The notes under the pieces were generated by a model, which saw nothing but the letters and a program-made list of their open reading frames with translations, ran no database searches and was not told where the DNA came from. This document shows, piece after piece, positions 13,855 to 31,552 of a stretch of DNA of 54,633 nt. The stretch spans positions 1 to 54,633 of the forward strand of contig NZ_NFHZ01000019.1 of the NCBI RefSeq assembly GCF_002161555.1, given 5' to 3'. The position numbers and the translations under genes were made by a program. Every line of letters starts with the position of its first letter. Position 1 is the stretch's first letter. Source of the DNA: Barnesiella sp. An55. GTDB lineage: Bacteria > Bacteroidota > Bacteroidia > Bacteroidales > Barnesiellaceae.

Positions 13855-13869
13855 AAAGAATACGATGAT

Positions 13870-15333: not shown

Positions 15334-15360
15334 TATTAACCCCGAAACTCAAAGACCAAT

Positions 15361-16626
15361 ATGTTATACTATCTATTCCAATATCTCGAATCGATGTTCG
15401 ATATTCCGGGTGCGCGGTTGTTCTCCTACATCTCGTTCCGGTCGGTAGTCGCCTTTATCCTGTCGTTGTTTATCGCCACCATCATCGGCCGGCGCATCAT
15501 CAACCGGTTGCAGATACGGCAAATCGGTGAGCTGGTACGCGACCTGGGTCTGGAGGGGCAGATGGCCAAGAAGGGTACACCCACGATGGGAGGGGTGATT
15601 ATCATCATTGCCATCCTGGTACCCTGCCTGCTGGTGGGCCGGTTGGGCAACATCTACATGATACTCATGCTCATCACGACCGTGTGGCTGGGTGCCATCG
15701 GTTTCCTCGACGACTCGATCAAGGTGTTTAAGAAAGATAAGGAGGGGCTGCACGGACGATTCAAGATTGTAGGTCAGGTGGGCCTTGGTCTCATCGTGGG
15801 CCTCACGCTCTACCTGAGCCCCGATGTGGTTATCCGCGAGAATGTGGCCGTGCAGGCTCCCGGTAGCGATACCGAGGTGGTGAAGTATGAGTCGGAGAAT
15901 ATCAAATCGACCCAGACTACCATCCCCTTCTTCAAGAACAACAACCTCGACTATGCCGACTTGGTCCCCTTCCTGGGCGAGCATGCACAAACCGGTGGAT
16001 GGATTATCTTCATCCTGCTCACCATATTCGTGGTGACCGCCGTCTCCAACGGCGCCAATCTGACCGATGGACTCGATGGCCTGGCTACGGGCACCTCGGC
16101 GATTATCGGTCTCACATTGGGTATTCTGGCCTATCTGTCGGGACACATAGCCTATGCTTCTTATTTAAATATAATGTATATCCCGGGCAGTGAAGAGCTG
16201 GTGGTCTTTGCCAGCGCCTTCATGGGAGCCACCATCGGGTTCCTGTGGTACAATGCCTATCCCGCCCAGGTATTCATGGGCGACACGGGCAGCTTGACCT
16301 TGGGCGGTATTATTGCCGTCTTTGCCCTGTGCATCCACAAGGAGCTGCTCATTCCCATCTTGTGTGCCATTTTCTTTGCCGAGGATTTGTCGGTAATGTT
16401 GCAGGTGGCCTACTTCAAGATAACCAAGCGCAAGTATGGCGAGGGTCGCCGTATATTCAAGATGACACCGTTGCACCACCATTTCCAGAAACCGGGGAAT
16501 GCAGGTATCAACGCTTTAATACAAAAACCGCTGCAGGCCGTGCCCGAGTCTAAAATCGTTGTCCGTTTTTGGATCGTCGGTCTCATGCTGGCAGCTATTA
16601 CCATAATTACGCTGAAAATGCGTTAG
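15361..16626 (+). CDS. mraY: Phospho-MurNAc-pentapeptide transferase MraY
   Basis: This polytopic inner-membrane enzyme joins phospho-MurNAc-pentapeptide to undecaprenyl phosphate, making lipid I. The 421-residue protein shows TPTMGG, the aspartate-rich [42 protein letters not shown] and MTPLHHHF, all family signatures. It is about 60 residues longer than the E. coli protein, because of an insertion near residues 160-205 ([18 protein letters not shown]...) between membrane helices. As I recall, this insertion is usual for Bacteroidetes. It sits between murE and murD with gaps of 27 and 15 bases. Confidence 0.97.
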
Positions 16627-16641
16627 AAAGGTTGTTTCGAT

Positions 16642-17985
16642 ATGGAAAAGAAAAAGAGAATTGTCGTGTTGGGGGCTGGCGAGAGCGGTGCCGGAGCCGC
16701 CGTGTTGGCCCAAGTGAAAGGTTTCGACGTGTTCGTTTCGGACATGTCGTCGATTCAAGACAAATATAAAGAGCAGCTCGACCGGTATGGAATTGCCTGG
16801 GAAGAAGGGCATCACACCCCCGAGTTGATTTTGAATGCCGACGAGGTGATCAAGAGCCCCGGTATCCCGACCAATGCTCCCATGATTGTGGCTTTGCGGG
16901 AAAGGAATATCCCCGTTATCTCCGAAATCGAGTTTGCCGGTCGCTATACCCATGCCCGCATGATCTGCATTACCGGTAGCAACGGCAAGACCACCACGAC
17001 CCTGCTCACCTATCATATCTTGAAGAGTGCCGGTTTGAAAGTGGGTTTGGCCGGCAACGTGGGGAAGAGTCTGGCCTTGCAGGTAGCAACTTGCGACTAC
17101 GACTACTATGTGATCGAGTTGAGCAGTTTCCAACTCGACAACATGTATGACTTCAAGGCCAATATTGCCGTGCTGCTCAACATTACTCCCGACCATCTCG
17201 ATCGCTACGATTACAAGATGGAGAATTATGTCGATGCCAAGTTCCGCATCATCCGCAACCAGACCGAGGACGATGCCTTCATCTATTGGAACGACGACCC
17301 CGTCATCAACGAAAAGCTGTCAACGATAACCCTCAAGTCGCAGCGCTATCCGTTTGCCGAGACTCACGAGCCCGGCACCCAGGCCTATACCGATCATGGA
17401 GAGCTCACCATCGACACGCCCGAGGAGAAACTCACCATGAATACCGACGAACTCTCGCTGCATGGCCGCCACAACCTTTACAACTCGATGGCTGCCGGGC
17501 TTTCGGCCTGCTTGTTGAATGTGAAAAAAGAGGCCATCCGCAAGGCTTTGAGCGACTTCGAGTCGGTAGAGCATCGGCTCGAACGGGTTGCATCGGTGCG
17601 GGGTGTGCAGTTTATCAACGATTCCAAGGCAACGAATGTCAACTCGTGCTGGTATGCGCTGGAGAGTATGAAGACTCCCGTGGTGCTCATCCTGGGCGGG
17701 AAAGACAAAGGAAACGACTATACCGAAATCGAACAACTCGTGCGCGACAAGGTGAAGGCACTGGTATTCCTTGGTGTCGATAACAGCAAGCTGCACGCCT
17801 TCTTCGAGGGCAAGGTGCCCTACATAACCGAGGCGCGCTCGATGAAAGAGGCGGTGGACAAGTCATATGCCCTCGCTTCGCCGGGCGATACGGTATTGCT
17901 GTCGCCCTGTTGCGCCAGCTTCGACCTGTTCAAGAGCTACGAAGATAGAGGCGACCAGTTCAAGGCTTGTGTAAGAGCATTATAA
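16642..17985 (+). CDS. murD: UDP-MurNAc-L-Ala:D-Glu ligase MurD
   Basis: This enzyme adds D-glutamate to UDP-MurNAc-L-alanine in the cytoplasm. The 447-residue protein begins with the Rossmann-like nucleotide-sugar segment VVLGAGESGAGAA. It has the ATP loop ITGSNGKTTTT near residue 112, the central NITPDHLDRY, and the C-terminal ligase domain with NDSKATN, LILGGKDKGNDY and LLSPCCASFDLFKSYEDRG. It is complete and of usual length. It is 15 bases after mraY and 21 bases before ftsW. Nothing odd is seen. Confidence 0.97.
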   Translation: MEKKKRIVVLGAGESGAGAAVLAQVKGFDVFVSDMSSIQDKYKEQLDRYGIAWEEGHHTPELILNADEVIKSPGIPTNAPMIVALRERNIPVISEIEFAGRYTHARMICITGSNGKTTTTLLTYHILKSAGLKVGLAGNVGKSLALQVATCDYDYYVIELSSFQLDNMYDFKANIAVLLNITPDHLDRYDYKMENYVDAKFRIIRNQTEDDAFIYWNDDPVINEKLSTITLKSQRYPFAETHEPGTQAYTDHGELTIDTPEEKLTMNTDELSLHGRHNLYNSMAAGLSACLLNVKKEAIRKALSDFESVEHRLERVASVRGVQFINDSKATNVNSCWYALESMKTPVVLILGGKDKGNDYTEIEQLVRDKVKALVFLGVDNSKLHAFFEGKVPYITEARSMKEAVDKSYALASPGDTVLLSPCCASFDLFKSYEDRGDQFKACVRAL

Positions 17986-18006
17986 GAAAAAGAGGAACAG
18001 ACGCTT

Positions 18007-19287
18007 ATGAAAGTCGATACAGTGGAGAATACCAAGAGGAGCGATCCCTACATTTGGGGGATTATCATCATCCTGTATATCGTGTCGGTAGTCGAGGTTT
18101 ACAGTGCGATAAGCCGCGAGATTACGGGTGGCGATGTCTATTCTCCTATCATCAAGCATGTGATGCTCCTCTTCTCGGGCTTCCTCATCACCTACTTCAC
18201 CTCGAAGATTCATTACAAGTGGTTCAAGATGGTGGCCTATCTGATGATACCGCTGGCCATCGTGCTGCTGGTGAGTATCCTCTTTTGGGGCGAGACCATC
18301 AATGGAGCCAAGCGTACCATCCCGATAATGGGTATCTCGCTGCAAGGCTCGGAGGTGGCCAAGGTAACGATTGTATTGGCGATGGCTACCGTCTTGGCCA
18401 AGAACCAGATTAAGCGAGGGGTGAATATGAAGGGTGTTATATGGGTGGTTGCGCTGGTTACCATCTTCAGCGGCCTGCTGTTTACCCAGGGCCTTACCAA
18501 CACGCTGCTCTTTATCGGGATAAGCGTGTGCATGATGCTTATCGGCGGGGTGGAGTTGTATAAACTGCTGGGTATCTTTTTGGTCTATGCCATCCTGGCG
18601 CTGGCGGTGATGCAGGCCAAGGACCTGATTACCGAGGCCAAGGCATCGCCTGAGACCCAGGAGGTCGTGACGCAGAATGGAGGAAAAGAGAAAAGGGTGA
18701 TTGCCCGCTCCTCGACGTGGAAGAGCCGCTTGGACGACTTTTTCGACCCTACGCCCGAGTATGAGAAGCCTACCACCCCTGACAATCTGCAAGAGCATCG
18801 GGCCGCCATGGCCATGGCACACGGAGGCATTACCGGTGTGGGGCCCGGCAACAGTCGGGAGTCGTCGCGGTTGCCGTTGGCCTTCTCCGACTACATCTAT
18901 GCCATCATTATCGAAGACTTGGGCTTTGTAGTCGGCGGGGTAGGGCTTTTGCTGGTCTATCTCATGATACTGGCGCGGGCGGGGCTCATAGCCCGGCGCT
19001 GTACCAAAGCCTTCCCGGCCCTGCTGGTCATGGGTATGGCGGTGATGATTGTGTTGCAGGCCCTCTTCAACATGGCCATTGTGGTAGGGGTGTTCCCCGT
19101 TTCGGGACAGCCGCTGCCGCTCATCAGTAAGGGAGGAACCTCGATTTGGATGATGAGTTTCGGTTTCGGAGTCATGCTCAGCGTGAGCCGGTATGCCGTA
19201 AAAGATACAGGTAGTAACATCAAGTCGGAGCGGGAGAGCGACTTGCCCGAAGATTTGCAGGCCGCCAATCCCACCAATTTAGCATAA
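18007..19287 (+). CDS. ftsW: Septal peptidoglycan polymerase FtsW (SEDS family)
   Basis: This multi-spanning inner-membrane glycosyltransferase polymerises lipid II at the septum together with FtsI. The 426-residue protein shows the SEDS pattern: many hydrophobic helices, the conserved NGAKRTIPIMGISLQGSEVAK, then a large extracytoplasmic loop with RAAMAMAHGGITGVGPGNS and SRLPLAFSDYIYAIIIEDLG, and the C-terminal GQPLPLISKGGTS. A charged insertion (about residues 215-265, including EKRVIARSSTWKSRLDDFF) lengthens the central loop relative to E. coli. Spacing to murG is 10 bases. Confidence 0.95.
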   Translation: MKVDTVENTKRSDPYIWGIIIILYIVSVVEVYSAISREITGGDVYSPIIKHVMLLFSGFLITYFTSKIHYKWFKMVAYLMIPLAIVLLVSILFWGETINGAKRTIPIMGISLQGSEVAKVTIVLAMATVLAKNQIKRGVNMKGVIWVVALVTIFSGLLFTQGLTNTLLFIGISVCMMLIGGVELYKLLGIFLVYAILALAVMQAKDLITEAKASPETQEVVTQNGGKEKRVIARSSTWKSRLDDFFDPTPEYEKPTTPDNLQEHRAAMAMAHGGITGVGPGNSRESSRLPLAFSDYIYAIIIEDLGFVVGGVGLLLVYLMILARAGLIARRCTKAFPALLVMGMAVMIVLQALFNMAIVVGVFPVSGQPLPLISKGGTSIWMMSFGFGVMLSVSRYAVKDTGSNIKSERESDLPEDLQAANPTNLA

Positions 19288-19297
19288 GGAGGCAATT

Positions 19298-20410
19298 ATG
19301 AAACGACCCATAAGAGTATTGATAAGCGGTGGCGGTACGGGGGGACACATCTTCCCCGCCATCTCCATCGCTAACGCGATAAAGGCCCGGTGCCCCGAGG
19401 CCGACATTCTGTTTGTAGGGGCCGAGAACCGCATGGAGATGGAGAAGGTGCCGGCGGCCGGATACCCCATCGAGGGGCTTCCCGTGAGCGGCTTCAACCG
19501 CAGTAATCTGCTGGCCAACTTCAAGGTGCTGTGGCGACTGGGCAAGAGCTTGAGGATGGCGCGCGGTATTGTGCGTCGGTTCAACCCCGACGTGGCCGTG
19601 GGGGTAGGCGGATATGCCAGTGGCCCCACGTTGTGGGCGGCTGCCCATCGGGGGGTGCCCACCCTCATCCAGGAGCAGAACTCCTATGCGGGGGTCACCA
19701 ATAAACTGCTGGCCTCGAAGGCGCACACCATCTGTGTGGCCTACGAGGGGATGGAGCGCTTCTTCCCGGCCGATAAAATCGTGCTCACGGGAAATCCCGT
19801 GCGACAGGACTTGTGTAACGACAGGCTCACTCGCGACGAGGCTTTCGAGTTTTTCGGACTCGACCCTCACAAGAAAACCATTCTGCTCATTGGGGGTAGT
19901 CTGGGTGCCCTCACCCTCAATACCGCCGTGGTAGAGTCGATACCCGAGATTGTGAAGAGCGGCGTACAGCTCATCTGGCAGTGTGGTAAACGGTTTGACG
20001 AGCGGGCTCGGGCGGCCATGGAAGCGGCCGGCAATCCGGCCTGCATCAAGCAGATGCCTTTTATCGCCCGCATGGACCTGGCCTACAAGGCTGCCGACCT
20101 GGTAATCTCGCGTGCCGGAGCCAGTTCCATTTCGGAGCTTTGCCTGCTGGGCAAGCCTGCCATTCTGGTACCGTCGCCCAATGTGGCCGAGGACCATCAG
20201 ACCAAGAATGCCGAGGCCCTCTCTTCGAAAGGGGCCGCCATACTGGTGCGTGATGCCGAGGCTCGTCAGCGGTTGATGCCCTGTGCCCTCTCGGTGGTTC
20301 ACGACGAGGAGGCACTCCAGTCGATGAGCCGGCAGATATCGCTGCTGGCCCAGCGCGATTCGGCTGCGCGTATTGCCGATATAATTTTTGATATAGTCGA
20401 TAAGCAATGA
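19298..20410 (+). CDS. murG: Lipid II synthase MurG
   Basis: This GT28 glycosyltransferase moves GlcNAc from UDP-GlcNAc to lipid I on the inner face of the membrane. The 370-residue protein shows the glycine loop ISGGGTGGHIFPAISIA at residues 8-24, VGVGGYASGP, LIQEQNSYAGVTNK, GGSLGA and the UDP-binding SRAGASSISEL near residue 275. Length is typical. Its stop overlaps the murC start (ATGA at 20407-20410), indicating translational coupling. Confidence 0.97.
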   Translation: MKRPIRVLISGGGTGGHIFPAISIANAIKARCPEADILFVGAENRMEMEKVPAAGYPIEGLPVSGFNRSNLLANFKVLWRLGKSLRMARGIVRRFNPDVAVGVGGYASGPTLWAAAHRGVPTLIQEQNSYAGVTNKLLASKAHTICVAYEGMERFFPADKIVLTGNPVRQDLCNDRLTRDEAFEFFGLDPHKKTILLIGGSLGALTLNTAVVESIPEIVKSGVQLIWQCGKRFDERARAAMEAAGNPACIKQMPFIARMDLAYKAADLVISRAGASSISELCLLGKPAILVPSPNVAEDHQTKNAEALSSKGAAILVRDAEARQRLMPCALSVVHDEEALQSMSRQISLLAQRDSAARIADIIFDIVDKQ

Positions 20411-21777
20411 AAAACTATACATCACTCTATTTCATAGGTGCCGGCGGCATAGGCATGAGCGCGCTGGTACGCTATTTCCTGGCCAAGGGCTATCGGGTGG
20501 CCGGCTACGACCGCACCCCTTCGCCCCTTACCGAAGCACTCCAGTCCGAGGGGTTGGAGATTGTCTATGACGAGTCGGTTGCTCTCATCCCCGACTATTG
20601 TCGCGATGCGGCTACCACGCTGGTGGTCTATACTCCGGCCATTCCGGCCACACACGCCGGGTTGGTCTATTTCAGAGAGCAGGGCTTCAAGGTCGTGAAA
20701 CGGGCCGAGTTGCTGGGGCTCATTACCCAGTCGAGCAAGGGCCTCTGTTTCTCGGGAACGCATGGCAAGACCACGACTTCGAGCATGGCTGCCCACATCT
20801 TCCACGAGTCGCCCATTGGCTGCAACGCTTTCCTGGGCGGTATTCTGCGCAACTACAACAGCAACCTCATCCTGTCGGACCACTCACCATTCACGGTCAT
20901 CGAGGCCGACGAGTATGACCGTTCGTTCCACTGGTTGCATCCCTATATGGCCGTGGTGACGGCTACCGATCCCGACCACCTCGATATCTACGGGACCGAG
21001 GAGGCCTATCTCGAGAGCTTTGCCCACTTCACCTCGCTCATCCAGCCGGGCGGTTGCCTGGTTATCAAGAAGGGTATCAAGCTGGTGCCCCGTGTGCAGG
21101 AGGGGGTGAAGGTCTATACCTATTCGGCCTGCGACGGCGGTGATTTCCATGCTGAGAACATACGGGTGGGCAACGGCACGATTGTGTTCGATTTCGTGGC
21201 CCCCGACGGCGTGGTGGCCGATGTCGAGTTGGGAGTCCCCGTCGATATCAACATCGAGAACGCCGTGGCCGCCATGGCGATTGCCCGGTTGAACGGAGTA
21301 GCCGACGACGATATGCGGCGGGCCATGGCCTCGTTCAAAGGCGCAAAACGCCGGTTTGAGTTTTGGGTAAAACGCAACGACCGGGTGATGATTGACGATT
21401 ATGCCCATCACCCCGACGAATTGAAGGCCAGCATCCGCTCGGTGCGGGCCCTCTATCCCGGTCGCAAGCTCACGGTAATCTTCCAGCCGCACCTGTACAG
21501 TCGCACGCGGGATTTCGCCCCCCAGTTTGCCGAGGCGCTCTCGATGGCCAACCAGGTGATTCTGCTCGATATCTATCCGGCTCGCGAGCAGCCCATACCG
21601 GGAGTCACCTCGCAACTTATTTTTGACAAGATAACGTGCAGAGATAAAGAACTTTGTTTGCGCGAAAAGTTGTTAGAACGGATAAAAGAGTGTAACTTTG
21701 ACATTTTATTGACGATGGGGGCCGGTGACATAGACCGGTTGCTCCCCCAAATAGCGTCAATCGTGGAGGCGAAATGA
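20407..21777 (+). CDS. murC: UDP-N-acetylmuramate:L-alanine ligase MurC
   Basis: This enzyme adds L-alanine to UDP-MurNAc, the first step in building the peptide stem. The 456-residue protein has FIGAGGIGMSALVRYFLAKG at its N-terminus, the ATP loop SGTHGKTTTSSM near residue 117, EADEYDRSFHWLHP, and the C-terminal DDYAHHPDELKA and IFQPHLYSRTRDF. It is complete. Both ends overlap neighbours by four bases (murG and ftsQ), so translation of the three genes is coupled. This places the first peptide-stem enzyme late in the cluster, the usual Bacteroidetes order. Confidence 0.97.
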   Translation: MKNYTSLYFIGAGGIGMSALVRYFLAKGYRVAGYDRTPSPLTEALQSEGLEIVYDESVALIPDYCRDAATTLVVYTPAIPATHAGLVYFREQGFKVVKRAELLGLITQSSKGLCFSGTHGKTTTSSMAAHIFHESPIGCNAFLGGILRNYNSNLILSDHSPFTVIEADEYDRSFHWLHPYMAVVTATDPDHLDIYGTEEAYLESFAHFTSLIQPGGCLVIKKGIKLVPRVQEGVKVYTYSACDGGDFHAENIRVGNGTIVFDFVAPDGVVADVELGVPVDINIENAVAAMAIARLNGVADDDMRRAMASFKGAKRRFEFWVKRNDRVMIDDYAHHPDELKASIRSVRALYPGRKLTVIFQPHLYSRTRDFAPQFAEALSMANQVILLDIYPAREQPIPGVTSQLIFDKITCRDKELCLREKLLERIKECNFDILLTMGAGDIDRLLPQIASIVEAK

Positions 21778-22511
21778 AGGCATTGTTGAGATTTTTGTTC
21801 ATGGTAGTGCTGGTAGCCTACCTGTTTGTCTCGTTCTTTATTCTCCGCTCCCAAGCGGCAGAGGACAAGTGCATAGACTTGCAGGTCGAGGTCTTGGACA
21901 GCACTGCGCGGCATTATATCTCGCCGGCTGACATATATGGCTATATCGAGGAGTACGATCTGGATCCTTGCGGGAAACCCATGGGCGAGATCGACACCGA
22001 GAAGATAGAACGAACCCTCATGCTGAACGGTGTGCTGGGTTCGGTCGAGTGTTATAAACGGGCGGGAGGAACCCTGTATGTGGGGGTAACCCAGCGCGTC
22101 CCCGTGATGCGGGTGATGGCCAACGGCAGTAACTATTATGTCGATACCGAGGGCCAGCGCATGGCTGCCGGGGGACAATATCGGGCGCATCTGCCGTTGG
22201 TGACGGGCCAGTTGGACAGTGTATTTACCTATCGTGAGCTGTTGCCGATAGCCCGGTATGTATATGAGCACCCCTTCTGGAATGCCCAGATTGAACAAAT
22301 TTATGTCAATGAGCGTCATGAGATAGAACTGGTGCCCCGGGTAGGCGATCAGACGATTCTGCTGGGGTCGGCTCAAGACTATGAAACGAAGTTCGACAAC
22401 CTGATGTTGGTCTATAAGAAGGTTTTCAACGAGACCGGTTGGTCGATGTACGACACCGTTTCGTTGAAGTTCAAAGACCAGGTAGTTTGTACTCGTAGGA
22501 AAAAGTGGTGA
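21774..22511 (+). CDS. ftsQ: Division protein FtsQ (DivIB)
   Basis: The product is a 245-residue bitopic division protein. One membrane helix lies near the N-terminus (LLRFLFMVVLVAYLFVSFFIL, about 3-23). It is followed by a POTRA-like segment (LQVEVLDSTARHYISPADIYGYIEEY to LGSVECYKRAGGTLYVGVTQRVPVMRV) and a beta domain ending near the C-terminus. FtsQ scaffolds FtsL/FtsB-type proteins at the septum. Sequence similarity is low in this phylum; topology and position between murC and ftsA decide the call. It overlaps murC by four bases. Confidence 0.9.
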   Translation: MKALLRFLFMVVLVAYLFVSFFILRSQAAEDKCIDLQVEVLDSTARHYISPADIYGYIEEYDLDPCGKPMGEIDTEKIERTLMLNGVLGSVECYKRAGGTLYVGVTQRVPVMRVMANGSNYYVDTEGQRMAAGGQYRAHLPLVTGQLDSVFTYRELLPIARYVYEHPFWNAQIEQIYVNERHEIELVPRVGDQTILLGSAQDYETKFDNLMLVYKKVFNETGWSMYDTVSLKFKDQVVCTRRKKW

Positions 22512-22530
22512 AATAAAAAACAATTGAGAT

Positions 22531-23961
22531 ATGGATACGGAGAGATACATAGTAGCTATTGAGATCGGGAGCTCGAAAATAAGAGGAGCCATAGGAACCC
22601 GCTCTCTGAAAGGGGTCGTTACTGTGCTTGGCGTAGATACCGAACCGTTGAACGGAAGCGTAAAACGGGGATTCGTGGTGCGACCCGATGAGGTGTCGGC
22701 GAAAATCAAACGCTTGATATTTAAGTTGAGCAACCGCATAGGGACTTCGAAAAAGATAAAACAAGTATATGTCGGCATCAGCGGTCAATCGCTCCATGCC
22801 GAAGAGCACATGATAAGTCGTGATTTCCCCGAGGGAACTCTCATCACCGAGGATATTATCAAACACTTGCAGGAAGAGGCCCGCGAGATGCCTATCGCCG
22901 GCGCCGATATTCTGGAGGTGGTGCGTACCGAGGTAACGGTCGATGGCCGCCTGCGCACCGGTAGAGACGAGTTGATGGGCTCGAGCCTGAAGATGGGCGT
23001 GAAACTGATAGTGGCCCGCGACGAGCTTAAGCGAAGCGCCGCCCGTTGTTTCCAGGGAGGTCTTGGTGTTGTGCATTACATCCCCACGGCCCTCTCGACA
23101 GCCTATGTGGCTTTGAGCAACGAAGACCGCCAGGCCGGTGTGATGTTGGTCGATTTTGGGGCCGACACCACTTCGGTATCGATCTATAAAGATGGCTTTT
23201 TGCGCTATCTCTCTACCATACCGCTGGGCGGGCAGAATATTACACGCGACATTATGACGCTGAATGTAACCGCTGCCGAGGCCGAATCGTTCAAGGTGCG
23301 CCTGGGATCGGCCAAGGTGATGGGCGATGAGTCGAATATCACGTTGCGTGGCGAGAATAACTCCGAGATCAAGAGCCTCGATCTTTCCAAGGTGGTCAAG
23401 GCTCGTATCGAGGAGATTGTAGCCAATGTCAATGCCCACTTCGATTATGCCAAGTGCGACCGCAAGAGCCTGGGTGCCGGGATGGTGATTGTGGGTGGAG
23501 CCTCTAAGCTCTCCAACCTCACCGAGCTGTTGGCCGAAAAATGCGACATCAAGGTGCGCAAGGGTGCACTTCGTCAGGATATGTTGCTCGATGTGGCCTC
23601 TCAATCGAAAAGTTCCGACTATCTGCAGATTCTGGGCCTGCTCTATTCGGGTCGCGAGAACTGCGTCGAGACCGAGGCATCGTCGATCGACGACGAGGAG
23701 AAAGAACCCGTTGTGGAAGAGGTGCCCGTAGATCCGAGAGAACAGAAAGCTCGAGAGAAAGAGGAGCAGGAGCGTCGCAAACGTGCCGAAAAAGAGCGTC
23801 GCAAACGCGAGGCCGAAGAGGCCAAGAAGCGTGAGAAAGAGCGCAAGGAGAAAGAGAAGGAGGAGAAGGAAAAATCCAAAGGCCCCGGTCTTTTTGGCAA
23901 GGTGAAAGATATGCTCAGGAAGGCCGAGACTCTGCTCGATGATGAAAACGATAACTATTAA
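22531..23961 (+). CDS. ftsA: Division protein FtsA with charged C-terminal extension
   Basis: This actin-like ATPase anchors FtsZ filaments to the membrane. The 476-residue protein has the ATPase fold with IEIGSSKIRGAIG at residues 10-22, an SHS2-type insert, LVDFGADTTSVSIY and VIVGGASKL. It is about 50 residues longer than usual. Residues about 395-452 are almost entirely K, E and R (a likely single charged helix or coiled coil). They lead to GPGLFGKVKDMLRKAETLL, a plausible amphipathic membrane-targeting helix. The charged linker would place the membrane anchor far from the ATPase core. It lies 12 bases before ftsZ. Confidence 0.95.
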   Translation: MDTERYIVAIEIGSSKIRGAIGTRSLKGVVTVLGVDTEPLNGSVKRGFVVRPDEVSAKIKRLIFKLSNRIGTSKKIKQVYVGISGQSLHAEEHMISRDFPEGTLITEDIIKHLQEEAREMPIAGADILEVVRTEVTVDGRLRTGRDELMGSSLKMGVKLIVARDELKRSAARCFQGGLGVVHYIPTALSTAYVALSNEDRQAGVMLVDFGADTTSVSIYKDGFLRYLSTIPLGGQNITRDIMTLNVTAAEAESFKVRLGSAKVMGDESNITLRGENNSEIKSLDLSKVVKARIEEIVANVNAHFDYAKCDRKSLGAGMVIVGGASKLSNLTELLAEKCDIKVRKGALRQDMLLDVASQSKSSDYLQILGLLYSGRENCVETEASSIDDEEKEPVVEEVPVDPREQKAREKEEQERRKRAEKERRKREAEEAKKREKERKEKEKEEKEKSKGPGLFGKVKDMLRKAETLLDDENDNY

Positions 23962-23973
23962 AAGAAGAACGTC

Positions 23974-25203
23974 ATGAACGAATTGGATATCAACAACGCT
24001 CAGTTGCCCGACTTCATCGTTCCCGGAGCCGATGCAAGAAAAGATGAGCCTATCAAGATAAAGGTAGTAGGTGTAGGTGGCGGTGGAGGTAATGCCGTCA
24101 ACTACATGTACCGTCAGAATATCCAGGGGGTGAGTCTGGCCCTCTGCAATACCGACCCTCAAGCCATGAGCGATTCGCTGGTGCCTATCAAGGTGGCTAT
24201 CGGCGACGAAGGAGCCGGAGGCGAGCCCGAGGAGGGCAAGCGCCTGGCCGAGGAGTATGAGCAGAAGGACGGCCGCATCTCGGCCCTCTTCGAAGACGAG
24301 ACCCGCATGGTATTCATCACTGCCGGGATGGGAGGTGGCACCGGTACGGGTGCCGGCCCGGTCGTGGCGCGCATTGCCAAGGAGAAGGGTATGCTCACGG
24401 TGGGTATCGTCACCATCCCGTTCCTCTTCGAGGGTGAGCCCAAGATCTTGCAGGCCTTTGCCGGTGTCGAGGAGATGCGTAAACACGTCGATGCGCTGCT
24501 GGTGATCAACAACGAACGGTTGTGTAAGATTTATCCCGACCTCTCGTGGACCAACGCCTTCTCCAAGGCCGATGATGCCTTGGCCAACGCCGCCCGCAGC
24601 ATTGCCGAACTGGTGTCGAAGAACGGTAAGATAAACCTCGACTTTGCCGATGTGCGCACTACTCTCAAGAATGGTGGCGCCGCCGTGATCAGTACCGGTG
24701 AAGGCGAAGGCGAGCACCGTATGAGCAAAGCCATACAGAATGCCCTCATCTCGCCGTTGCTCAAGGAGAGCGATATCTATGACTCGGAGCGGGTATTGTT
24801 CAACCTTTATTTCTCGCCCGAGGAGTCGGACGAGCTTCGCATCGAGGAGTCGAAAGAGTTGAGCGCCTTTATGACCCGCTTCAAGAAACGGGTAAAGGTA
24901 ATTTGGGGTTACACCCACGACTCGTCGCTGGGCAAGAAGGTGAAGATTACCATTCTGGCTACCGGATTCGAGGTGTCGGACCTCACCTTCAAGGGCGAAT
25001 ACGGAGGCGATGCCGACGAGCACATTGCCCAGTCGCAGTACATTGTGCTGCGTCCCGACCAGCTCGACAACAACGAGCTCATCGACAAACTCGAGAATGC
25101 GCCGGCCTATGACCGTCCCAAAGACTTCCGCGACAACTTCGAGGGCGGCGAAAAGCAGCGTCACGAGGAGAGCGGGAGCAGCCGTCGCTCCATAAAATTT
25201 TGA
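23974..25203 (+). CDS. ftsZ: Division GTPase FtsZ
   Basis: This tubulin-like GTPase forms the Z ring. The 409-residue protein shows VGVGGGGGNAVNYM near residue 33, the tubulin signature GMGGGTGTGAGPVVA near residue 120, and the T7-loop region NLDFADVRTTLKNGGAAVIS. The linker after the globular core is short (about residues 355-400). The extreme C-terminus SSRRSIKF is basic, as expected for the peptide that binds FtsA. It is the last gene of the dcw order and is followed by yqeY after 26 bases. Confidence 0.97.
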   Translation: MNELDINNAQLPDFIVPGADARKDEPIKIKVVGVGGGGGNAVNYMYRQNIQGVSLALCNTDPQAMSDSLVPIKVAIGDEGAGGEPEEGKRLAEEYEQKDGRISALFEDETRMVFITAGMGGGTGTGAGPVVARIAKEKGMLTVGIVTIPFLFEGEPKILQAFAGVEEMRKHVDALLVINNERLCKIYPDLSWTNAFSKADDALANAARSIAELVSKNGKINLDFADVRTTLKNGGAAVISTGEGEGEHRMSKAIQNALISPLLKESDIYDSERVLFNLYFSPEESDELRIEESKELSAFMTRFKKRVKVIWGYTHDSSLGKKVKITILATGFEVSDLTFKGEYGGDADEHIAQSQYIVLRPDQLDNNELIDKLENAPAYDRPKDFRDNFEGGEKQRHEESGSSRRSIKF

Positions 25204-25229
25204 TTGAAACCTGTAAAATAGTATAGATT

Positions 25230-25679
25230 ATGAATTTATTTGATCAGGTCAGCAACGACATCAAAAGTGCCATGCTGGCAAAAGACAAAGTAAGACTCGA
25301 AGCCCTGCGGGGTATCAAGAAAGAGTTTCTCGAAGCAAAGACCGCCAAAGGGGCCGATGGTGAACTGTCGGACGAGACGGCGATGAAGATATTGGCCAAG
25401 ATGGTGAAACAACGCAAGGAGAGCGCTCAAATCTACTCGGAGCAAAATCGCCCCGATTTGGCCGAACCCGAACTGGCCGAAGCTGCCGTGATAGAGACCT
25501 ATCTGCCCAAGCAGATGACCGACGAGGAGCTGACGGCTGCCCTCAAGGCTATTATTGCCCAGGTGGGAGCCACCACACCGCAGGAGATGGGCAAGGTGAT
25601 GGGTGTGGCCACCAAGCAGTTGGCCGGGCGTGCCGACGGTCGTGCCATCTCGACCAAAGTAAAAGAACTGTTGTCTTAA
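25230..25679 (+). CDS. GatB/YqeY domain protein
   Basis: The product is a 149-residue cytoplasmic protein corresponding to the helical tail domain of GatB, found alone. Matching segments are KDKVRLEALRGIKKEFLEAKTAK, AEAAVIETYLPKQMTDEEL and MGKVMGVATKQLAGRADGRAISTKVKELL. In GatB this domain contacts tRNA, so a tRNA-linked role is plausible but unproven for the stand-alone form. It sits 26 bases after ftsZ and 31 before serS, so it may ride on the dcw transcript. Length is normal for the family. Confidence 0.92.
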   Translation: MNLFDQVSNDIKSAMLAKDKVRLEALRGIKKEFLEAKTAKGADGELSDETAMKILAKMVKQRKESAQIYSEQNRPDLAEPELAEAAVIETYLPKQMTDEELTAALKAIIAQVGATTPQEMGKVMGVATKQLAGRADGRAISTKVKELLS

Positions 25680-25710
25680 AAACAAGAATACAATATACCA
25701 ACATTAGACT

Positions 25711-26982
25711 ATGCTTACACTAAGTGTCATTAAAGAGAATCCCGAAGAGGTGATACGCCGGTTGGCTATCAAGCAATTCGACGGGCGAGAGGCCATAACC
25801 CGGGTACTCGAACTGGATAAAATACGTCGCGCTTCGCAAGCCGAGCTCGATGGCAAACTGGCCGAACTCAAGCGGTTGGCTGCTCAAACCGGACAATTGA
25901 TGAAAGCCGGTAAAAAAGAGGAAGCCGAGGCTGTGAAGGCCCAGACGGCTGCCCTGAAAGAATCGACAAAGGCTCTTGAGGATTCGATGGTATCGGCCGA
26001 GAAAGAGATTACCGATATTTTGTTGACAGTCCCCAACCTGCCTTATGCCGGTGTGCCCGAGGGTCGTACCGCCGCCGATAACATTGTCGAGAAGACTGGT
26101 GGTGTCATGCCCAATCTGCCTGAGGATGCACTGCCCCACTGGGAGTTGGCCAAGAAATATGACTTGATCGACTTTGAACTGGGTGTGAAGATTACCGGTG
26201 CCGGTTTCCCCGTTTACAAGGGTAAGGGTGCCCGGTTGCAACGTGCCTTGATTTCGTTTTTCCTCGATGCTGCCCGCGAGGCCGGATACCTCGAGATACA
26301 ACCTCCCTATGTGGTAAATGCCGCATCGGGTTACGGAACGGGACAATTGCCCGATAAAGAGGGTCAGATGTACCACTGCAACGAGGATGACCTCTACCTG
26401 ATTCCTACCGCCGAGGTACCGGTGACCAACCTCTACCGCGATGTGATTTTCAATGAGAGCGATCTGCCCATCAAGAATACGGCCTATTCGGCCTGCTTCC
26501 GTCGCGAAGCCGGCTCATACGGCAAGGACGTGCGTGGCTTGAACCGTCTGCACCAGTTCGACAAGGTGGAGATTGTGCAAATACAGCACCCCGACCACTC
26601 CTACGAGGCTCTCGAGGAGATGAAAGATCATGTGCAGAGTCTGGTAGAGCGCCTCGAATTGCCTTGGCACATTCTGCGTCTGTGTGGCGGCGATATGAGT
26701 TTCACCTCGGCCATTACGTTCGACTTCGAGGTATTCTCGGCCGCTCAGAAACGCTGGCTCGAGGTTAGCTCGGTATCCAACTTCGAGAGCTACCAGGCCA
26801 ACCGTCTGCACTGTCGTTATCGTGGTGCCGACAAGAAGATGCACCTGTGCCACACCCTCAACGGTAGTGCATTGGCTTTGCCTCGTATTGTCGCTGCATT
26901 GCTCGAGAACAACCAAACCCCCGAAGGTATCAAGATTCCTAAAGTGCTGGTACCTTACTGCGGTTTCGATATCATCGACTGA
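25711..26982 (+). CDS. serS: Seryl-tRNA synthetase
   Basis: This class II aminoacyl-tRNA synthetase charges tRNA-Ser. The 423-residue protein has an N-terminal coiled-coil arm (about residues 30-105, rich in K, E and A) that grips the tRNA. A catalytic core follows with motif 1 (GYLEIQPPYVVN), motif 2 (YSACFRREAGSYGKDVRGLNRLHQF) and motif 3 (ALALPRIVAALLEN). It also has the serine-binding TAEVPVTN segment. All motifs are intact and length is normal. The gene ends 20 bases before a perfect hairpin terminator at 27003-27034. Confidence 0.97.
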   Translation: MLTLSVIKENPEEVIRRLAIKQFDGREAITRVLELDKIRRASQAELDGKLAELKRLAAQTGQLMKAGKKEEAEAVKAQTAALKESTKALEDSMVSAEKEITDILLTVPNLPYAGVPEGRTAADNIVEKTGGVMPNLPEDALPHWELAKKYDLIDFELGVKITGAGFPVYKGKGARLQRALISFFLDAAREAGYLEIQPPYVVNAASGYGTGQLPDKEGQMYHCNEDDLYLIPTAEVPVTNLYRDVIFNESDLPIKNTAYSACFRREAGSYGKDVRGLNRLHQFDKVEIVQIQHPDHSYEALEEMKDHVQSLVERLELPWHILRLCGGDMSFTSAITFDFEVFSAAQKRWLEVSSVSNFESYQANRLHCRYRGADKKMHLCHTLNGSALALPRIVAALLENNQTPEGIKIPKVLVPYCGFDIID

Positions 26983-27070: not shown

Positions 27071-27610
27071 TTATTGTACGCCCGACTTAGCAATCGTTTC
27101 GTCGGCTACTTTGTCAAATTGAGCCTGTTGGTAGTCGAGTTTCAGTTTCTCGTCTTCCAGAATGGCTTTCTCGATGGCATCGGTGATTTCTGTTTTGGAG
27201 AGACCTACCGAGATGTAAGCTCTGTATTTACCGTCGGCGGTGCGCACGATGCGGTCGCATACGATTGTCGAACCCGAAAGAGTCTGTTTGGTGATAAGTT
27301 GCAGACGCTCTTCGGTCTTTTCGTTCAGTTCGGTGTTGATATCATTGCGGTAGCGTTTGGAGAAGTTTTCTACGGCGGTCGAGATCGACGATGCGATAGA
27401 GGCACGAGCCGAGTTCACGGCTTTGTCCTTGGCCATTTGCATATCGGTACTCTCGGCCGTGGCATTGGCATAGAAATACTCTTCGCTGGTGAGGAAGTGG
27501 CACAGTTGTTCAACCTCCTGCTCGCCGCTATTGGCCGCTTGTTTGGTCGATGAACATGATGCCAGCGATATCACGCCCAGTGATATCAGTAACAGTTTGA
27601 TTGCTTTCAT
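27071..27610 (-). CDS. LPP20-family lipoprotein
   Basis: The product is a 179-residue lipoprotein. With the start at 27610, a signal peptide of 18 residues ends in the lipobox LASC19. The mature part reads as an LPP20-like domain: MAKDKAVNSARASIASSISTAVENFSKRY and DRIVRTADGKYRAYISVGLSKTEI. LPP20 domains occur in FlgP and related outer-membrane assembly lipoproteins. It is the last gene of a four-gene minus-strand unit of exported proteins, 40 bases after its neighbour, and is followed by the terminator at 27003-27034. The likely location is the inner leaflet of the outer membrane. The function is unknown. Confidence 0.8.
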   Translation of the reverse strand: MKAIKLLLISLGVISLASCSSTKQAANSGEQEVEQLCHFLTSEEYFYANATAESTDMQMAKDKAVNSARASIASSISTAVENFSKRYRNDINTELNEKTEERLQLITKQTLSGSTIVCDRIVRTADGKYRAYISVGLSKTEITDAIEKAILEDEKLKLDYQQAQFDKVADETIAKSGVQ

Positions 27611-27650
27611 TTTCAATAAAGTTTTAGTGTTAATAATGATGTGAATGTGT

Positions 27651-29075
27651 CTATTCTATGATTTCGGGCATCGACGTGTCGTCGTCGGCTTCGTTGTCAA
27701 TCGCGTTGCTGTTTTGTTGAGCTTTGCGGGAGAAGTGAGCGTTTTTCAAGTTGCGTTCGAGCATGGGCCGCAGTTCCTTGAACAGGTCGCGTTGCACGGT
27801 GGCCTGTATCTTGGAGTTGGAGCTGTTGACCGGGAGCAGCGAACGGACGTCTTGTGGCCCGAAGTTGGCAACGGTGTTGCCTGTACTCAAATCGATAATG
27901 GAGATGTTGCAGGAGGCGAAAACCTCGATGAGGTCATACATCTCGCTCGGGATGATACCGCCTTTGCGAATCGACGAGTTGACAGTGACCGAGAGGTCGG
28001 CGCTGTCTTTCTCGTGAACGATATCGAAGTAGTCGTTCAGGTAGCTCGAGATGTTGTTCGACAGTCCCGATATGCGGTTGTCCTGAGTATAGAGTATCGC
28101 TTTGAGAGGCGCTTGCTCGACCACTACAGGCAACTTGATGACCGGGATGTGGTCAAACAGGTCGGCCGTCAACCGCTTCATGTAGTCGGTGTTGAATTTT
28201 GCAGGAGCCGATACATCGACCCGCAACTCAATCTCTTGGTAGGGCTGTTTCGAGGTGACATTGGTGATGGTGAGCGTGGCTGTCCCGTTGCTTTGGGTCT
28301 TGGCGTCGAGCGACACTGAGCCTTCGCCAATCGAGAAGCGAGCTTTCAAGGGGATGCCTATTGCGGGCGTCCCGTTTGATAGCACTTCGATTTGTGCCAG
28401 AGTGGCCTCTTTGCTGAAGGCCTGGGCCGTAATCTTCTGCGGGGTGGTGAGAATCGACAGGTCGGCAAAGAGAGCCTTGAGCGAATTGTATAGCTCGATG
28501 CCGATATCGATGGTGCGACCCTGATGATCGACCGTGAGATGGCGGTTGGCATAGGCTTCGACCGATGCAAGCCCCGACAGGTAGAGGTCCATGGCGTCGG
28601 TGAGACGGCCCGAGTCTTCGGCCTGGACGCCTTTTACCCAATAGTCATAGGCTCGGGTGGTGGCTTCGGACAGACGCTTTTGCATCAGCAGTTCATACTC
28701 TTTCTTGTTCAGTCGATAATATACCCAGTACCGTTCACCGTCGTTGTAACTATCGACCAGTTCGTGTCCTTCGAGTTGAGCGATGGCCGTGCTCTTGATG
28801 TCCTGGTTGAACGACTCGCTATACACGCTGTTGATATCCTGTTGATTGAGCAGCGACGTGCTTTCGATTTCGATGTTGATTTCGCCGATGAGGTCGCCCA
28901 GCGCCTTGTCGCGGGCTACTTGCTGGAAATTGTTCTCGGTAACCAATGCCGAGCTAATGCCTATATAATAGTCGTTGTCGATGGGCTTGGCTTTGACCCA
29001 TGCCGGTGTAGTGCCGGCAAAGGTCGCAACCATCCCGATAAACAAGGATATAGATGATACGAGAATACGTTTCAT
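27651..29075 (-). CDS. Exported LPP20-like/CsgG-like multidomain protein, unknown function
   Basis: The product is a 474-residue periplasmic or surface protein. After a signal peptide (about 1-20, ending ATFAG) comes an LPP20-like domain (TPAWVKAKPIDNDYYIGISSA, then a conserved A-rich helix). A helical segment with an AxxYWxxGxxAEDSGR motif follows. An Ig-like beta module (about 230-310, IPLKARFSIGEGSVSLDAKT) comes next. Last is a C-terminal alpha/beta module (SYLNDYFDIVHEKDSADLSVTV, ASCNISIIDLSTGNTV) that resembles the CsgG/TolB-N fold. The ATG at 29075 lies two bases after the upstream gene's stop. Domain calls are by eye and could be wrong in detail. Confidence 0.7.
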   Translation of the reverse strand: MKRILVSSISLFIGMVATFAGTTPAWVKAKPIDNDYYIGISSALVTENNFQQVARDKALGDLIGEINIEIESTSLLNQQDINSVYSESFNQDIKSTAIAQLEGHELVDSYNDGERYWVYYRLNKKEYELLMQKRLSEATTRAYDYWVKGVQAEDSGRLTDAMDLYLSGLASVEAYANRHLTVDHQGRTIDIGIELYNSLKALFADLSILTTPQKITAQAFSKEATLAQIEVLSNGTPAIGIPLKARFSIGEGSVSLDAKTQSNGTATLTITNVTSKQPYQEIELRVDVSAPAKFNTDYMKRLTADLFDHIPVIKLPVVVEQAPLKAILYTQDNRISGLSNNISSYLNDYFDIVHEKDSADLSVTVNSSIRKGGIIPSEMYDLIEVFASCNISIIDLSTGNTVANFGPQDVRSLLPVNSSNSKIQATVQRDLFKELRPMLERNLKNAHFSRKAQQNSNAIDNEADDDTSMPEIIE

Positions 29076-29077
29076 GG

Positions 29078-30343
29078 TCAATCGTCTATGGTTATGTAAA
29101 TGGTATTACCGTCGAGCCGGTTGGAGGCGTTGATACCCTGTTTCTTCAGGTAGCGGGTGAGGCGTACGGCAAAGTCGTTGGCATCTTGCAGCGCCCCGTT
29201 TTCGTCTTTGTTGGGAATTTGTACGCTATCGAGAATCAGCAGCACATCGGTTTTGCCTTGTTGGTGGAATCGTCCGCCGACGGCATTTTTGCGAACCCAC
29301 GAGCGTATGTAGTCCGAGATGCCAAAGCCCGCCGTTCCCACCTCGTCGTCGAGGGTCTTGTAGGATGTGCCGGCGATGCTTACGCGCAGGGTAACGGACG
29401 TACCCCGATCGATACTCTTGGCCAGACTCTCAACTACCTCGCCGATGAACTCTTCGGAGACCTTGTGTATGGCTCCTACGCACAGACGGTCGAATGTGGT
29501 CGAGCCCGAGAAGGATGAGTTTTTGGTAGAGAGCAGGTTACCTGTGGCGGTTTCGTAGGCCTTGAGGGCGAGCGATACGCTGCCTTTTGAGCCGGTCATC
29601 CGCTTGGTGATATCGACACTCACATAGATGTCGGCGCCGCTGCTTCGAATGAGTTGGGCGTCGAACGTGTTGGCATTGTCATATTCAAATTCGTTGGAGC
29701 GGAGGGCGGCATTGTAGCGGGCCTCGAAGTCGATGGTGGTGACACCTATCTCGCGGAACTCTTCCTGCACCTTGCTGATGGCGATACGCTTGTCGGCATC
29801 GCTCGAGAGAATCTCTTTGTAGCTTTCGCCGTCCTGTTTGTAGGGAACCACCATGATAGTGGGGTTGATACCGCTGTCCGATACCTCTTCGGCACTCATC
29901 TCCGAAGCCTCGGGAGCCCGCAGGTCGTTTTGCAGCAGGTCGCGGTCAAAGGCATCCTTGTAGAGTTGCACGGTGACGGTGACCTCCCACAACCCGAGGT
30001 AGTTTTTCTTGGGTTTGGGGTCGTCGAGAGCCTTGGCAAACACGGCATATCGGTTGTTGTCGTAGAGGCGTGTAAAGTAATAGGAGTGAGCCGTGCGGTC
30101 TGCTTCCTTCAGGATGGGTTTGCCGTTGTCCACTCCCTGGATACCGGCAAACAAATAGGTGTCGATAGCCGATTTTACGGCCATCGGGATGGCTTGTTTC
30201 TTCTCGGTCGAAGTGGCGGTGGACTTCAGGGTTATGGTAGGTCCCTCACCCCCGAGGTATATGACATCCCTTGAAAAGTAATCTTCTGCATGTAGAGCCA
30301 CCATTGAGGTGAGAAGCAGGAGTAACCATGTAATTCTTTTCAT
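29078..30343 (-). CDS. DUF6175-like exported protein with CsgG/TolB-N-like core
   Basis: The product is a 421-residue exported protein with a signal peptide (residues 1-19, ending VALHA). The first part (AIPMAVKSAIDTYLFAGIQGVDNGKPIL) and the region PTIMVVPYKQDGESYKEILSSDADKRIAISKVQEEF fit what I recall as DUF6175. The middle has the CsgG/FlgO-type plan: a conserved strand, a long helix, V-T-T-I-D-F, then SSGADIYVSVDITKRM and LKAYETATGNLLSTKNSSF. A final domain (about 340-421) is separate. It is the second gene of the four-gene unit; its stop is two bases before the next start. The function is unknown. Confidence 0.7.
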   Translation of the reverse strand: MKRITWLLLLLTSMVALHAEDYFSRDVIYLGGEGPTITLKSTATSTEKKQAIPMAVKSAIDTYLFAGIQGVDNGKPILKEADRTAHSYYFTRLYDNNRYAVFAKALDDPKPKKNYLGLWEVTVTVQLYKDAFDRDLLQNDLRAPEASEMSAEEVSDSGINPTIMVVPYKQDGESYKEILSSDADKRIAISKVQEEFREIGVTTIDFEARYNAALRSNEFEYDNANTFDAQLIRSSGADIYVSVDITKRMTGSKGSVSLALKAYETATGNLLSTKNSSFSGSTTFDRLCVGAIHKVSEEFIGEVVESLAKSIDRGTSVTLRVSIAGTSYKTLDDEVGTAGFGISDYIRSWVRKNAVGGRFHQQGKTDVLLILDSVQIPNKDENGALQDANDFAVRLTRYLKKQGINASNRLDGNTIYITIDD

Positions 30344-30369
30344 TAGACCTGTGATAAATGGTTATTACC

Positions 30370-30405
30370 CGTTAAGGGTGAGATTGTCATATCTCACCCT
30401 TAACG
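30370..30405 (-). terminator. Perfect 15-bp hairpin inside the four-gene operon
   Basis: The arms 30370-30384 and 30391-30405 are perfectly complementary around a 6-base loop. They lie between the stop of the first gene (30426) and the start of the second (30343). No T-run follows on the minus strand, so it is more likely an attenuator or an mRNA-stabilising stem than a full stop. It would let the first gene be expressed above the rest. Confidence 0.65.
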
Positions 30406-30425
30406 AGATAAGTAAAATAGAGATC

Positions 30426-31202
30426 TTAGAGACCAAAAATATTGGTGTTTACTTTGGTGACAACCGTTACGGCGTCGGGGGTTTCGAGCATGGCTTTTTG
30501 AATTTCCTTACCCTCTTTGGTTACTTTGCAGAGCGAGATGTCGGCACCTTCTACCGATTCTACCTTGATTTCGCCGATTACTTTGTTGATGGTGCGGCCA
30601 CCGATTGTCTTCTCAACACGTACATCGAGTTTCTGGCCTTTGAGGATTCCGTCTTCGCTGCCGAGCGAGATATAAACTTTCTTGGCGGCATCTTTCTTCA
30701 CTTCGGCTACTTCGATGACGGTACCGTAGGATTTGAATACCTCGTCCACGAAGTCGGGAATTTGGGCGTCGATGAAGTCAACGGCCGAGTTGACGGCGTC
30801 GAGTTTGGTATAGAATGTCGAGAAGAGTGTCGAGCTTGTGGCTTCGAATGTTTTATTGGCAATGATTTCGTTGTCGCTGATGCGAGTAACTTTCAATTGA
30901 TAGTTGATTTTGGCCGAGTAGGTGGTACCCTTGTCGTTGCGCCCCGTGGTGTAGGTGATGGAGACTACTTGTCCGTCGAGCGTGTAGTCGGCTTCGGCAC
31001 CGTCGTCGGTAGCACTGTCGAGCACTTTGACACGGCCTTTGTTGTTGATGCCTTCCATAACTTTGTTGCGTACAGAGTTGCAATAAGTCTGGCTGACAGA
31101 GGTGCTGTGGGTGAACGGTTTTACAAGTACACTTTCGCGAGCGGCGTAGGTTGAAAGAGAAAACAGAGCCAATACCACTAACAATAATACGTTTTTCATC
31201 AT
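30426..31202 (-). CDS. Exported CsgG/FlgO-like protein with FlgT-C-like tail
   Basis: The product is a 258-residue exported protein starting at 31202 (MMKNVLLLVVLALFSLSTYAA is the signal region). The mature N-terminal domain follows the CsgG/FlgO/TolB-N plan: VLVKPFTHSTSVSQTYCNSV, a helix, VKVLDS, then ADYTLDGQVVSITYTTGR and YQLKVTRISDNEII. The C-terminal part (KKVYISLGSEDGILKGQKLDV, GEIKVESVEGADISLCKV) resembles the small beta barrel at the end of FlgT. Both halves suggest an outer-membrane assembly role. It is the first gene of the four-gene unit. The assignment is by pattern, not alignment. Confidence 0.7.
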   Translation of the reverse strand: MMKNVLLLVVLALFSLSTYAARESVLVKPFTHSTSVSQTYCNSVRNKVMEGINNKGRVKVLDSATDDGAEADYTLDGQVVSITYTTGRNDKGTTYSAKINYQLKVTRISDNEIIANKTFEATSSTLFSTFYTKLDAVNSAVDFIDAQIPDFVDEVFKSYGTVIEVAEVKKDAAKKVYISLGSEDGILKGQKLDVRVEKTIGGRTINKVIGEIKVESVEGADISLCKVTKEGKEIQKAMLETPDAVTVVTKVNTNIFGL

Positions 31203-31261: not shown

Positions 31262-31552
31262 ATAAAAACAAAAGACGTGGGAGTCTGTACCTGTTACTCG
31301 TCCCACAATCCTAGGCTCTCGCATTGCCATTCCTGTCGGGACTCGCAACACAGAAACCCACGCCGATATGTATATAGTATCTGAAAAATCCGATACCATA
31401 ACATATCAGCCGGGCATCTACTGTTGCTCTCTCTTGGACAGGTGATGAATTTGCGAGATTCAGGATTGTCAAGATCAATAGCGCAAAGTAAACGCCTTTT
31501 GATATGTTAGCCCCCTTCTGGCCGGATTGAAATCAATCGGCACAGTGGCAAT
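31262..31552 (-). ncRNA. Candidate structured non-coding RNA, about 290 nt
   Basis: On the minus strand a full promoter (31559-31589) is followed by about 290 bases with no credible reading frame, ending in a large stem and a T-rich run (rc of 31262-31275). The terminal element pairs 31276-31281 (CGTGGG) with 31357-31362 (CCCACG). Inside it are TCTGT/ACAGA and GTCCC/GGGAC pairings. A second long-range stem pairs 31400-31408 with 31500-31508 (9 bp, perfect). A small hairpin GTATC/GATAC lies between. I considered tmRNA, RNase P RNA and SRP RNA and saw none of their core sequences. A Bacteroidales-1 or 6S-type RNA remains possible. It lies upstream of the exported-protein operon. Confidence 0.5.

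Follow-up and report, generated by a model that had tools for sequence, protein, structure and literature searches.

Locus and gene content

Four adjacent minus-strand genes, designated A to D, were analysed in a stretch of DNA from Barnesiella sp. An55 (contig NZ_NFHZ01000019.1, positions 1 to 54,633; "the window" denotes this whole stretch of 54,633 nucleotides). The occurrence of their relatives near cell-wall hydrolases suggests a little-studied outer-membrane scaffold that acts on the cell wall. The features of the locus are listed in Table 1.

Table 1. Coordinates of the four genes and of the A-B intergenic stretch in the window.
Feature	Position	Strand	Description
Gene A	30426-31202	minus	257-258 amino acids; signal peptide, CsgG/TolB-N-like domain, FlgT-C-like domain
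A-B intergenic stretch	30344-30425	minus	82 bases; strong hairpin
Gene B	29078-30343	minus	421 amino acids; signal peptide, DUF6175
Gene C	27651-29075	minus	474 amino acids from ATG; signal peptide, LPP20, helices, immunoglobulin (Ig)-like and CsgG/LptE-like domains
Gene D	27071-27610	minus	179 amino acids; LPP20-family lipoprotein, lipobox LASC

A first-pass annotation had placed four genes for exported proteins on the minus strand at 27071-31202, and open reading frames (ORFs) are indeed found there. Sec-type signal peptides were recognised by eye at the N-termini of A, B and C, and the lipobox of D was identified with a regular expression. The stop of B is separated from the start of C by 2 bases, and C from D by 40 bases. 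In the ORF list C starts with a TTG at 29081 (476 amino acids), and the residue numbers of C refer to this ORF.

A congener (genome G106) retains A-D at an orthologous locus together with both flanks, a seryl-tRNA synthetase gene on one side and a beta-N-acetylglucosaminidase gene on the other. The amino acid identities between the two are 84% for A, 82% for B, 73% for C and 84% for D, and the ratios of nonsynonymous to synonymous substitution rates (dN/dS) are 0.090, 0.096, 0.141 and 0.080 respectively. Since dN/dS lies between 0.08 and 0.14, A-D are considered to be proteins under purifying selection. A hairpin of different sequence is also present between A and B of the congener; that of the window is not followed by a run of T.

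Domain composition of the four proteins

B belongs to DUF6175 (PF19672; Pfam E 2.3e-58, 198.1 bits against a gathering score of 23 bits). Three domains are seen in its predicted structure: an SHS2-like domain at about residues 27-138, a CsgG/TolB-N-like domain at 160-314 and a third alpha/beta domain at 315-420 (window positions of about 29081-29401), modelled as beta-alpha-beta-beta-alpha-beta-beta. FlgT was the top Foldseek match of the whole model. The SHS2 insert is mostly helical in the model, and a beta-hairpin of the FlgP type was not seen in it. Comparison of the N-terminal part of B with D or with the LPP20 domain of C by hhalign gave no match, and the SHS2 reading of this domain therefore rests on the AlphaFold model and the FlgT match. 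The 50 VIA matches listed for B include neither Lpp20 nor any other single SHS2 chain, an absence that carries no weight. The first-pass assignment of B to DUF6175 with a CsgG-like core thus held, but the N-terminal SHS2-like domain had been missed.

The earlier description of C as LPP20 plus Ig-like plus CsgG-like modules is borne out by the model, in which LPP20 (about 38-125) and a stretch of helices are followed by an Ig-like domain (205-321) and a CsgG/LptE-like domain (325-452). The LPP20 domain (PF02169) scored 29.6 bits against the Pfam gathering score of 25.9, and the C profile matched the LPP20-family chain 4kzs. The LPP20 insert of C is mostly helical at low confidence (predicted local distance difference test, pLDDT, of 59-76), and a FlgP-type beta-hairpin was not seen there. 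For D, the same family gave 24.2 bits with hmmscan, below the gathering score, and 28.5 bits in the genome search, above it. The D profile matched Lpp20 (5ok8, E 5e-5), as expected from its first-pass assignment as an LPP20 lipoprotein. The lipobox expression was found in 20 of 24 D genes; two of the others (L037, L046; loci in relatives are given L numbers) have a cysteine at a fitting place and two (L060, L061) do not. With hhalign, the LPP20 domain of C matched D at 68.9% and the last domain of C matched the core of B at 15-20%. Searches of the PDB with the single sequences of B, C and D gave chance matches alone, and profiles were needed.

The CsgG-type cores of B and C were compared with CsgG itself. 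Residues 43-252 of CsgG aligned to 127 residues within 152-308 of the B model, and residues 48-252 aligned to 121 residues within 325-452 of the C model (205-210 CsgG residues in each case). In these models, nothing in B and C seems to correspond to the transmembrane strands of CsgG. Matches to LptE, CsgG, PelC and TolB-N all fall on the same stretches.

Protein A had been described as CsgG-like with a FlgT-C-like part, and a profile of 36 rows agrees with this. Its top PDB match was FlgT (3w1e; whole-sequence E 9.1e-5, best single stretch 0.032), with FlgT rows at ranks 1, 2, 4 and 5 of 11 and a coiled-coil adhesin construct (2yny, E 0.0032) in among them. The single-sequence Pfam matches of A were all below cut-off. 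FlgT_C scored 12 bits against a gathering score of 27 (14.7 in the relative L039), and the three-domain chain of FlgT (N, M, C) was not found in one protein: SHS2 and TolB-N-like modules lie in B, TolB-N-like and FlgT-C-like modules in A. CsgG (PF03783) gave no match at E 1 for A-D of the window, and scored 21 against 20.8 bits in the relative L069. LpoB (PF13036) gave no match at E 1 for A and borderline scores in relatives. Weak matches of A to the LptE family and to an ABC-transport auxiliary lipoprotein were also obtained. Since defining features of the FlgT, CsgG and LpoB families were sought and not found, A is not to be called a member of any of them.

Recurrence and modularity of the gene set

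A four-row alignment of B, scanned over genome contigs, recovered 97 relatives, and the analysis was continued with the best 80 loci. The order A-B-C-D is also found in Odoribacter laneus, Bacteroides xylanisolvens and Marinifilum breve. With the window and L029 included, B was called in 80 of 82 loci, as one fused gene in 25 and unfused in 55; the N-terminal part is a separate gene in 45 of the latter, the usual order being A, B-N, B-C, X. The cores of X and A are related (89.8% by hhalign, compared with 10-16% between the A and B cores). The split form also occurs in Flavobacterium and Chitinophagaceae records, and the genome of Barnesiella sp. An55 itself carries a second, split cassette (L024, contig C47, about 130-131.5 kb) with genes for A-like, B-N, B-C and X proteins of 278, 151, 292 and 310 amino acids.

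Every one of the 25 fused-B loci has A in its cluster (22 counted together, with the window, L043 and L036 added separately; A follows D in L036), C adjoins B in 21 of 25 and D follows C in 16 of 25. In three of the nine loci where D does not follow C (L029, L049, L058), the available stretch comes to its end. In the four fused-B loci that have no adjacent C, its place is taken by zinc-ribbon genes (L042, L054) or by X (L060, L061).

The search was repeated in 393 genomes of the same order, drawn independently. B-type matches were found in 88 genomes and C-type matches in 53. All five C matches of at least 340 bits adjoin a fused B, a line that was set after the gap down to 288 bits had been seen. 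In 18 weaker C regions that were inspected (62 match rows, 20 fetched), no B was present within four genes in either direction, and D was the next gene in three (L119, L120, L122). Ten of the 18 (L126-L131, L133-L136) follow a protein of about 450-510 amino acids, which in most cases appears by eye to carry a lipoprotein signal. At L120 and L122 the C-D pair is followed by genes for a 196-residue lipoprotein that matches the A profile and for a 468-residue lipoprotein, which we take to resemble an LpoB/tetratricopeptide-repeat gene pair. Nine genomes of the family, all of one genus, were examined: C is present in two, full-length fused B in the same two, and some B match in four. At the Pfam level, 13 of 296 genomes taken from the phylum, and none of 14 control genomes, have DUF6175.

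The strict four-gene set is thus a recurrent unit. The gene set is also modular, since C-like and B-like genes occur apart. Occurrence of the genes apart had been named as evidence against the first-pass idea, and it was borne out in part, by the 18 C-like regions that have no B nearby and by the four fused-B loci that have no adjacent C.

Hydrolase and zinc-ribbon genes near the relatives

A gene for a peptidoglycan hydrolase, an MltC-type transglycosylase or M23, was present in 11 of 23 C-bearing loci. In six of them (L043, on the other strand; L047, L053, L055, L064, L066) it encodes MltC_N and SLT domains, and in five it is an M23 gene, recognised by Pfam in L038, L039 and L044 and by a hidden Markov model (HMM) in L050 and L051. 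Four more C-bearing loci (L037, L040, L041, L046) have a related coiled-coil protein with no recognised Pfam domain. In the other 57 loci the same HMMs found one clear M23 gene (L101, E 4e-14), two marginal ones (L111, L112) and no SLT gene; the HMMs were built from the positive set, and this control is thus biased toward linkage.

MltC_N is rare in the order, with matches in 7 of 393 genomes; E. coli alone matched among the 14 controls. Two of the five genomes with a strict C match have it (hypergeometric P 0.0027). In G078 and G118 no more than about 8 kb separates it from fused B; it lies near a D-type LPP20 gene in G275 (L143) and beside an LPP20-like gene in G076 (L140; D profile E 3e-6). 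No convincing member of the set was found near it in G109, G292 and G129. The genome of Barnesiella sp. An55 gave no MltC_N match, and neither hydrolase nor zinc-ribbon genes lie beside A-D in the window and in its nearest relative, L035.

The first two of three zinc-ribbon genes occur within eight genes of B in 10 of the 80 loci (L042, L043, L045, L048, L052-L055, L064, L066), with the third in nine (L048 ends before it); they are also present at L145. Their products have no obvious signal peptides. The first member exceeded the Peptidase_C25 cut-off in seven of eight tested (seven of the loci, L048, L054 and L055 being left out, and L145), and that of L052 gave no match at E 0.01. By Pfam, the first member at L053 shows no zinc ribbon, and the third member at L043 is below the zinc-ribbon cut-offs. 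When the three zinc-ribbon neighbours of one relative were searched with PADLOC, one showed weak LmuB/PbeC matches.

Sequences flanking A-D in the window

A division and cell-wall cluster lies at 11785-26982, with genes for a penicillin-binding protein, Mur ligases, an FtsW family protein, a glycosyltransferase of family 28, FtsA and FtsZ. It is followed by the seryl-tRNA synthetase gene and is convergent with the A-D unit. The closeness of this cluster was considered as a clue and set aside: among the stretches examined, FtsZ was found in just one other A-D locus (L047) and in two C-like loci (L126, L128).

Upstream of A, a structured RNA candidate of about 200 nucleotides (31275-31500, minus strand) is predicted to fold into a long bulged rod hairpin, a shape that we take to be reminiscent of 6S RNA. 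It is conserved in the congener (L138) and partly in L139, from a genome of the same genus that has no B or C matches. The consensus fold of the three sequences has 66 pairs; 15 have changes on both sides with pairing kept in at least one sequence, 23 are broken or gapped in one, and the covariation term is +0.13. The candidate had no Rfam match, and no match above the gathering score was obtained over the whole window. A match to STnc320 below that score (E 0.0016), on a terminator-like hairpin downstream of D, was discounted.

A possible scaffold for peptidoglycan cutting

The four proteins are best read as an anchor or scaffold at the outer membrane, and the first-pass interpretation is to this extent partly supported. 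We tentatively propose, at somewhat less than even confidence, that A-D form one gene unit, whose products build a scaffold in the periplasm that is non-flagellar, is tethered to the outer membrane and positions or controls peptidoglycan cutting. Module identity is known at the profile or fold level, and function is what we infer from it. The lipoprotein D would be the anchor, presumably placed in the inner leaflet of the outer membrane. In B and C, as in FlgT, an SHS2/LPP20 domain has a TolB-N/CsgG-like domain after it, and A matches the half of FlgT made up of the TolB-N-like and FlgT-C parts. On the model of the Vibrio H-ring, A-D may assemble below the outer membrane as an oligomeric collar, and this assembly would position or gate a wall hydrolase. 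Control or positioning of wall cutting is the most likely task, because a hydrolase gene shares the cluster in many relatives; the copy in the window would use a hydrolase encoded elsewhere.

The Vibrio H-ring is formed by the lipoproteins FlgO and FlgP together with FlgT (PMC7990780). An SHS2-like fold is common to FlgP, Lpp20 and FlgT, and a hairpin insert goes with ring formation (PMC12222027). A-D resemble this system in the SHS2/LPP20, TolB-N-like and FlgT-C modules and in the combination of an outer-membrane lipoprotein with periplasmic partners. The likeness to FlgO, FlgP and FlgT noted at first pass is upheld at the module level, with FlgT as the top match of the A profile and the B model and Lpp20 as the profile match of D. 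The absence of flagellar genes was confirmed to the extent that the flagellar export family of FlhA (FHIPEP, PF00771) was not found in the genome of Barnesiella sp. An55; 4 of 14 control genomes match it. Unlike the H-ring, moreover, A-D have the FlgT modules spread over A and B, an extra Ig domain in C and a third domain in B, and the companions in relatives are cell-wall hydrolases.

In Helicobacter pylori, HP1454, with an Lpp20-like first domain, and HP1456 (Lpp20) are encoded in one operon, and cells without HP1456 were reported to be unaltered in motility, motor structure and bacitracin resistance (PMC11756786). HP1457 is described as an LpoB homologue (PMC11394524). The hp1454-hp1457 region is thus like A-D: it encodes an LpoB-type protein and an Lpp20 lipoprotein, along with a protein of several domains of which the first is Lpp20-like. 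We take hp1457 to adjoin hp1456 from the locus numbers, gene order not having been compared, and we know of no DUF6175 protein in the region. These findings are the closest precedents for a non-flagellar, wall-linked role.

The H. pylori operon also bears on a different explanation, which we consider unlikely: by analogy with LpoB, A-D might regulate peptidoglycan synthesis, with one or more outer-membrane lipoproteins that extend across the wall and activate a synthase together with Lpp20-type partners, a role that has been suggested for HP1457. Relatives of A come near the LpoB cut-off (22.3 against 22.3 bits as printed for L100, 21.8 against 22.3 for L069), L069 matches TIGR02722 at E 1.4e-4 but with 21.9 against 110.55 bits, and the A-matching lipoproteins beside the C-D pairs of L120 and L122 fit such a scheme. 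A and LpoB presumably share a fold superfamily. The A of the window, however, is no lipoprotein and does not match LpoB; it includes a FlgT-C-like part, and FlgT is its top PDB profile match. The enzymes encoded nearby are hydrolases rather than synthases. Division and cell-wall genes up to FtsZ do lie beside the set of the window, but among the A-D loci in the stretches examined L047 alone is alike.

A larger version of the preferred scaffold may be envisaged, with A-D as the outer half of an as yet unrecognised envelope-spanning machine; by opening the wall on command it would serve lysis, defence or extrusion. This seems quite unlikely. Its full form, as it may be represented in several uncultured Bacteroidales records, would comprise cytoplasmic-looking zinc-ribbon proteins, one with a C25/caspase-type domain, a periplasmic MltC-type wall-cutter (M23 in other lineages) and the FlgT/Lpp20-type collar under the outer membrane.

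The secretion assembly suggested by the first-pass annotation fared worse. The TolB-N/CsgG-type core of B and C recalls the CsgG curli channel and the PelC ring, and such domains might form a pore or funnel for a substrate. In the predicted structures, however, the 127 and 121 aligned residues leave most of the CsgG transmembrane stretch with no apparent counterpart, and an export apparatus is in our judgement improbable.

It is more improbable still that the set serves conditional self-lysis or defence, in which zinc-ribbon/C25 protease proteins would signal and a transglycosylase would cut the wall, with A-D coupling them to the outer membrane. The zinc-ribbon loci and their C25 matches favour such a role, and the MltC-type gene is also present at five of those ten loci (L043, L053, L055, L064, L066) and at L145. 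Yet zinc-ribbon genes are lacking in the window, in L035 and at most of the 80 loci, the C25 match fails at L052, and in PADLOC A, B and D gave no match at E 0.1 and C one at chance level (Csa3, E 0.017). A set for handling lipid or lipopolysaccharide is the least probable: the last domain of C resembles LptE and A matches it weakly, but this likeness is not specific, given that CsgG, PelC and TolB-N fall on the same stretches, and neither LptD nor an ABC partner came to light in the clusters, where no search was aimed at them.

In the literature searched, which left most subscription papers outside, no mention of DUF6175 and no work linking LPP20 and CsgG in a Bacteroid context was found; among the reports listed on LPP20 with Bacteroid none looked relevant by title and start of abstract, the papers listed for the family names, MltC_N included, dealt with other subjects, and what turned up for LpoB together with CsgG was a review. 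The parts are known already, and no description of the A-D combination was found there. DUF6175, a family of unknown function, gains a domain architecture from this analysis. To our knowledge, FlgP and FlgT modules are known mainly as wide-collar parts of flagellar motors. If the proposal is true, a non-flagellar collar set tied to hydrolases would show a role for such collars outside the flagellum, for which Bacteroides xylanisolvens XB1A and Odoribacter laneus are tractable organisms.

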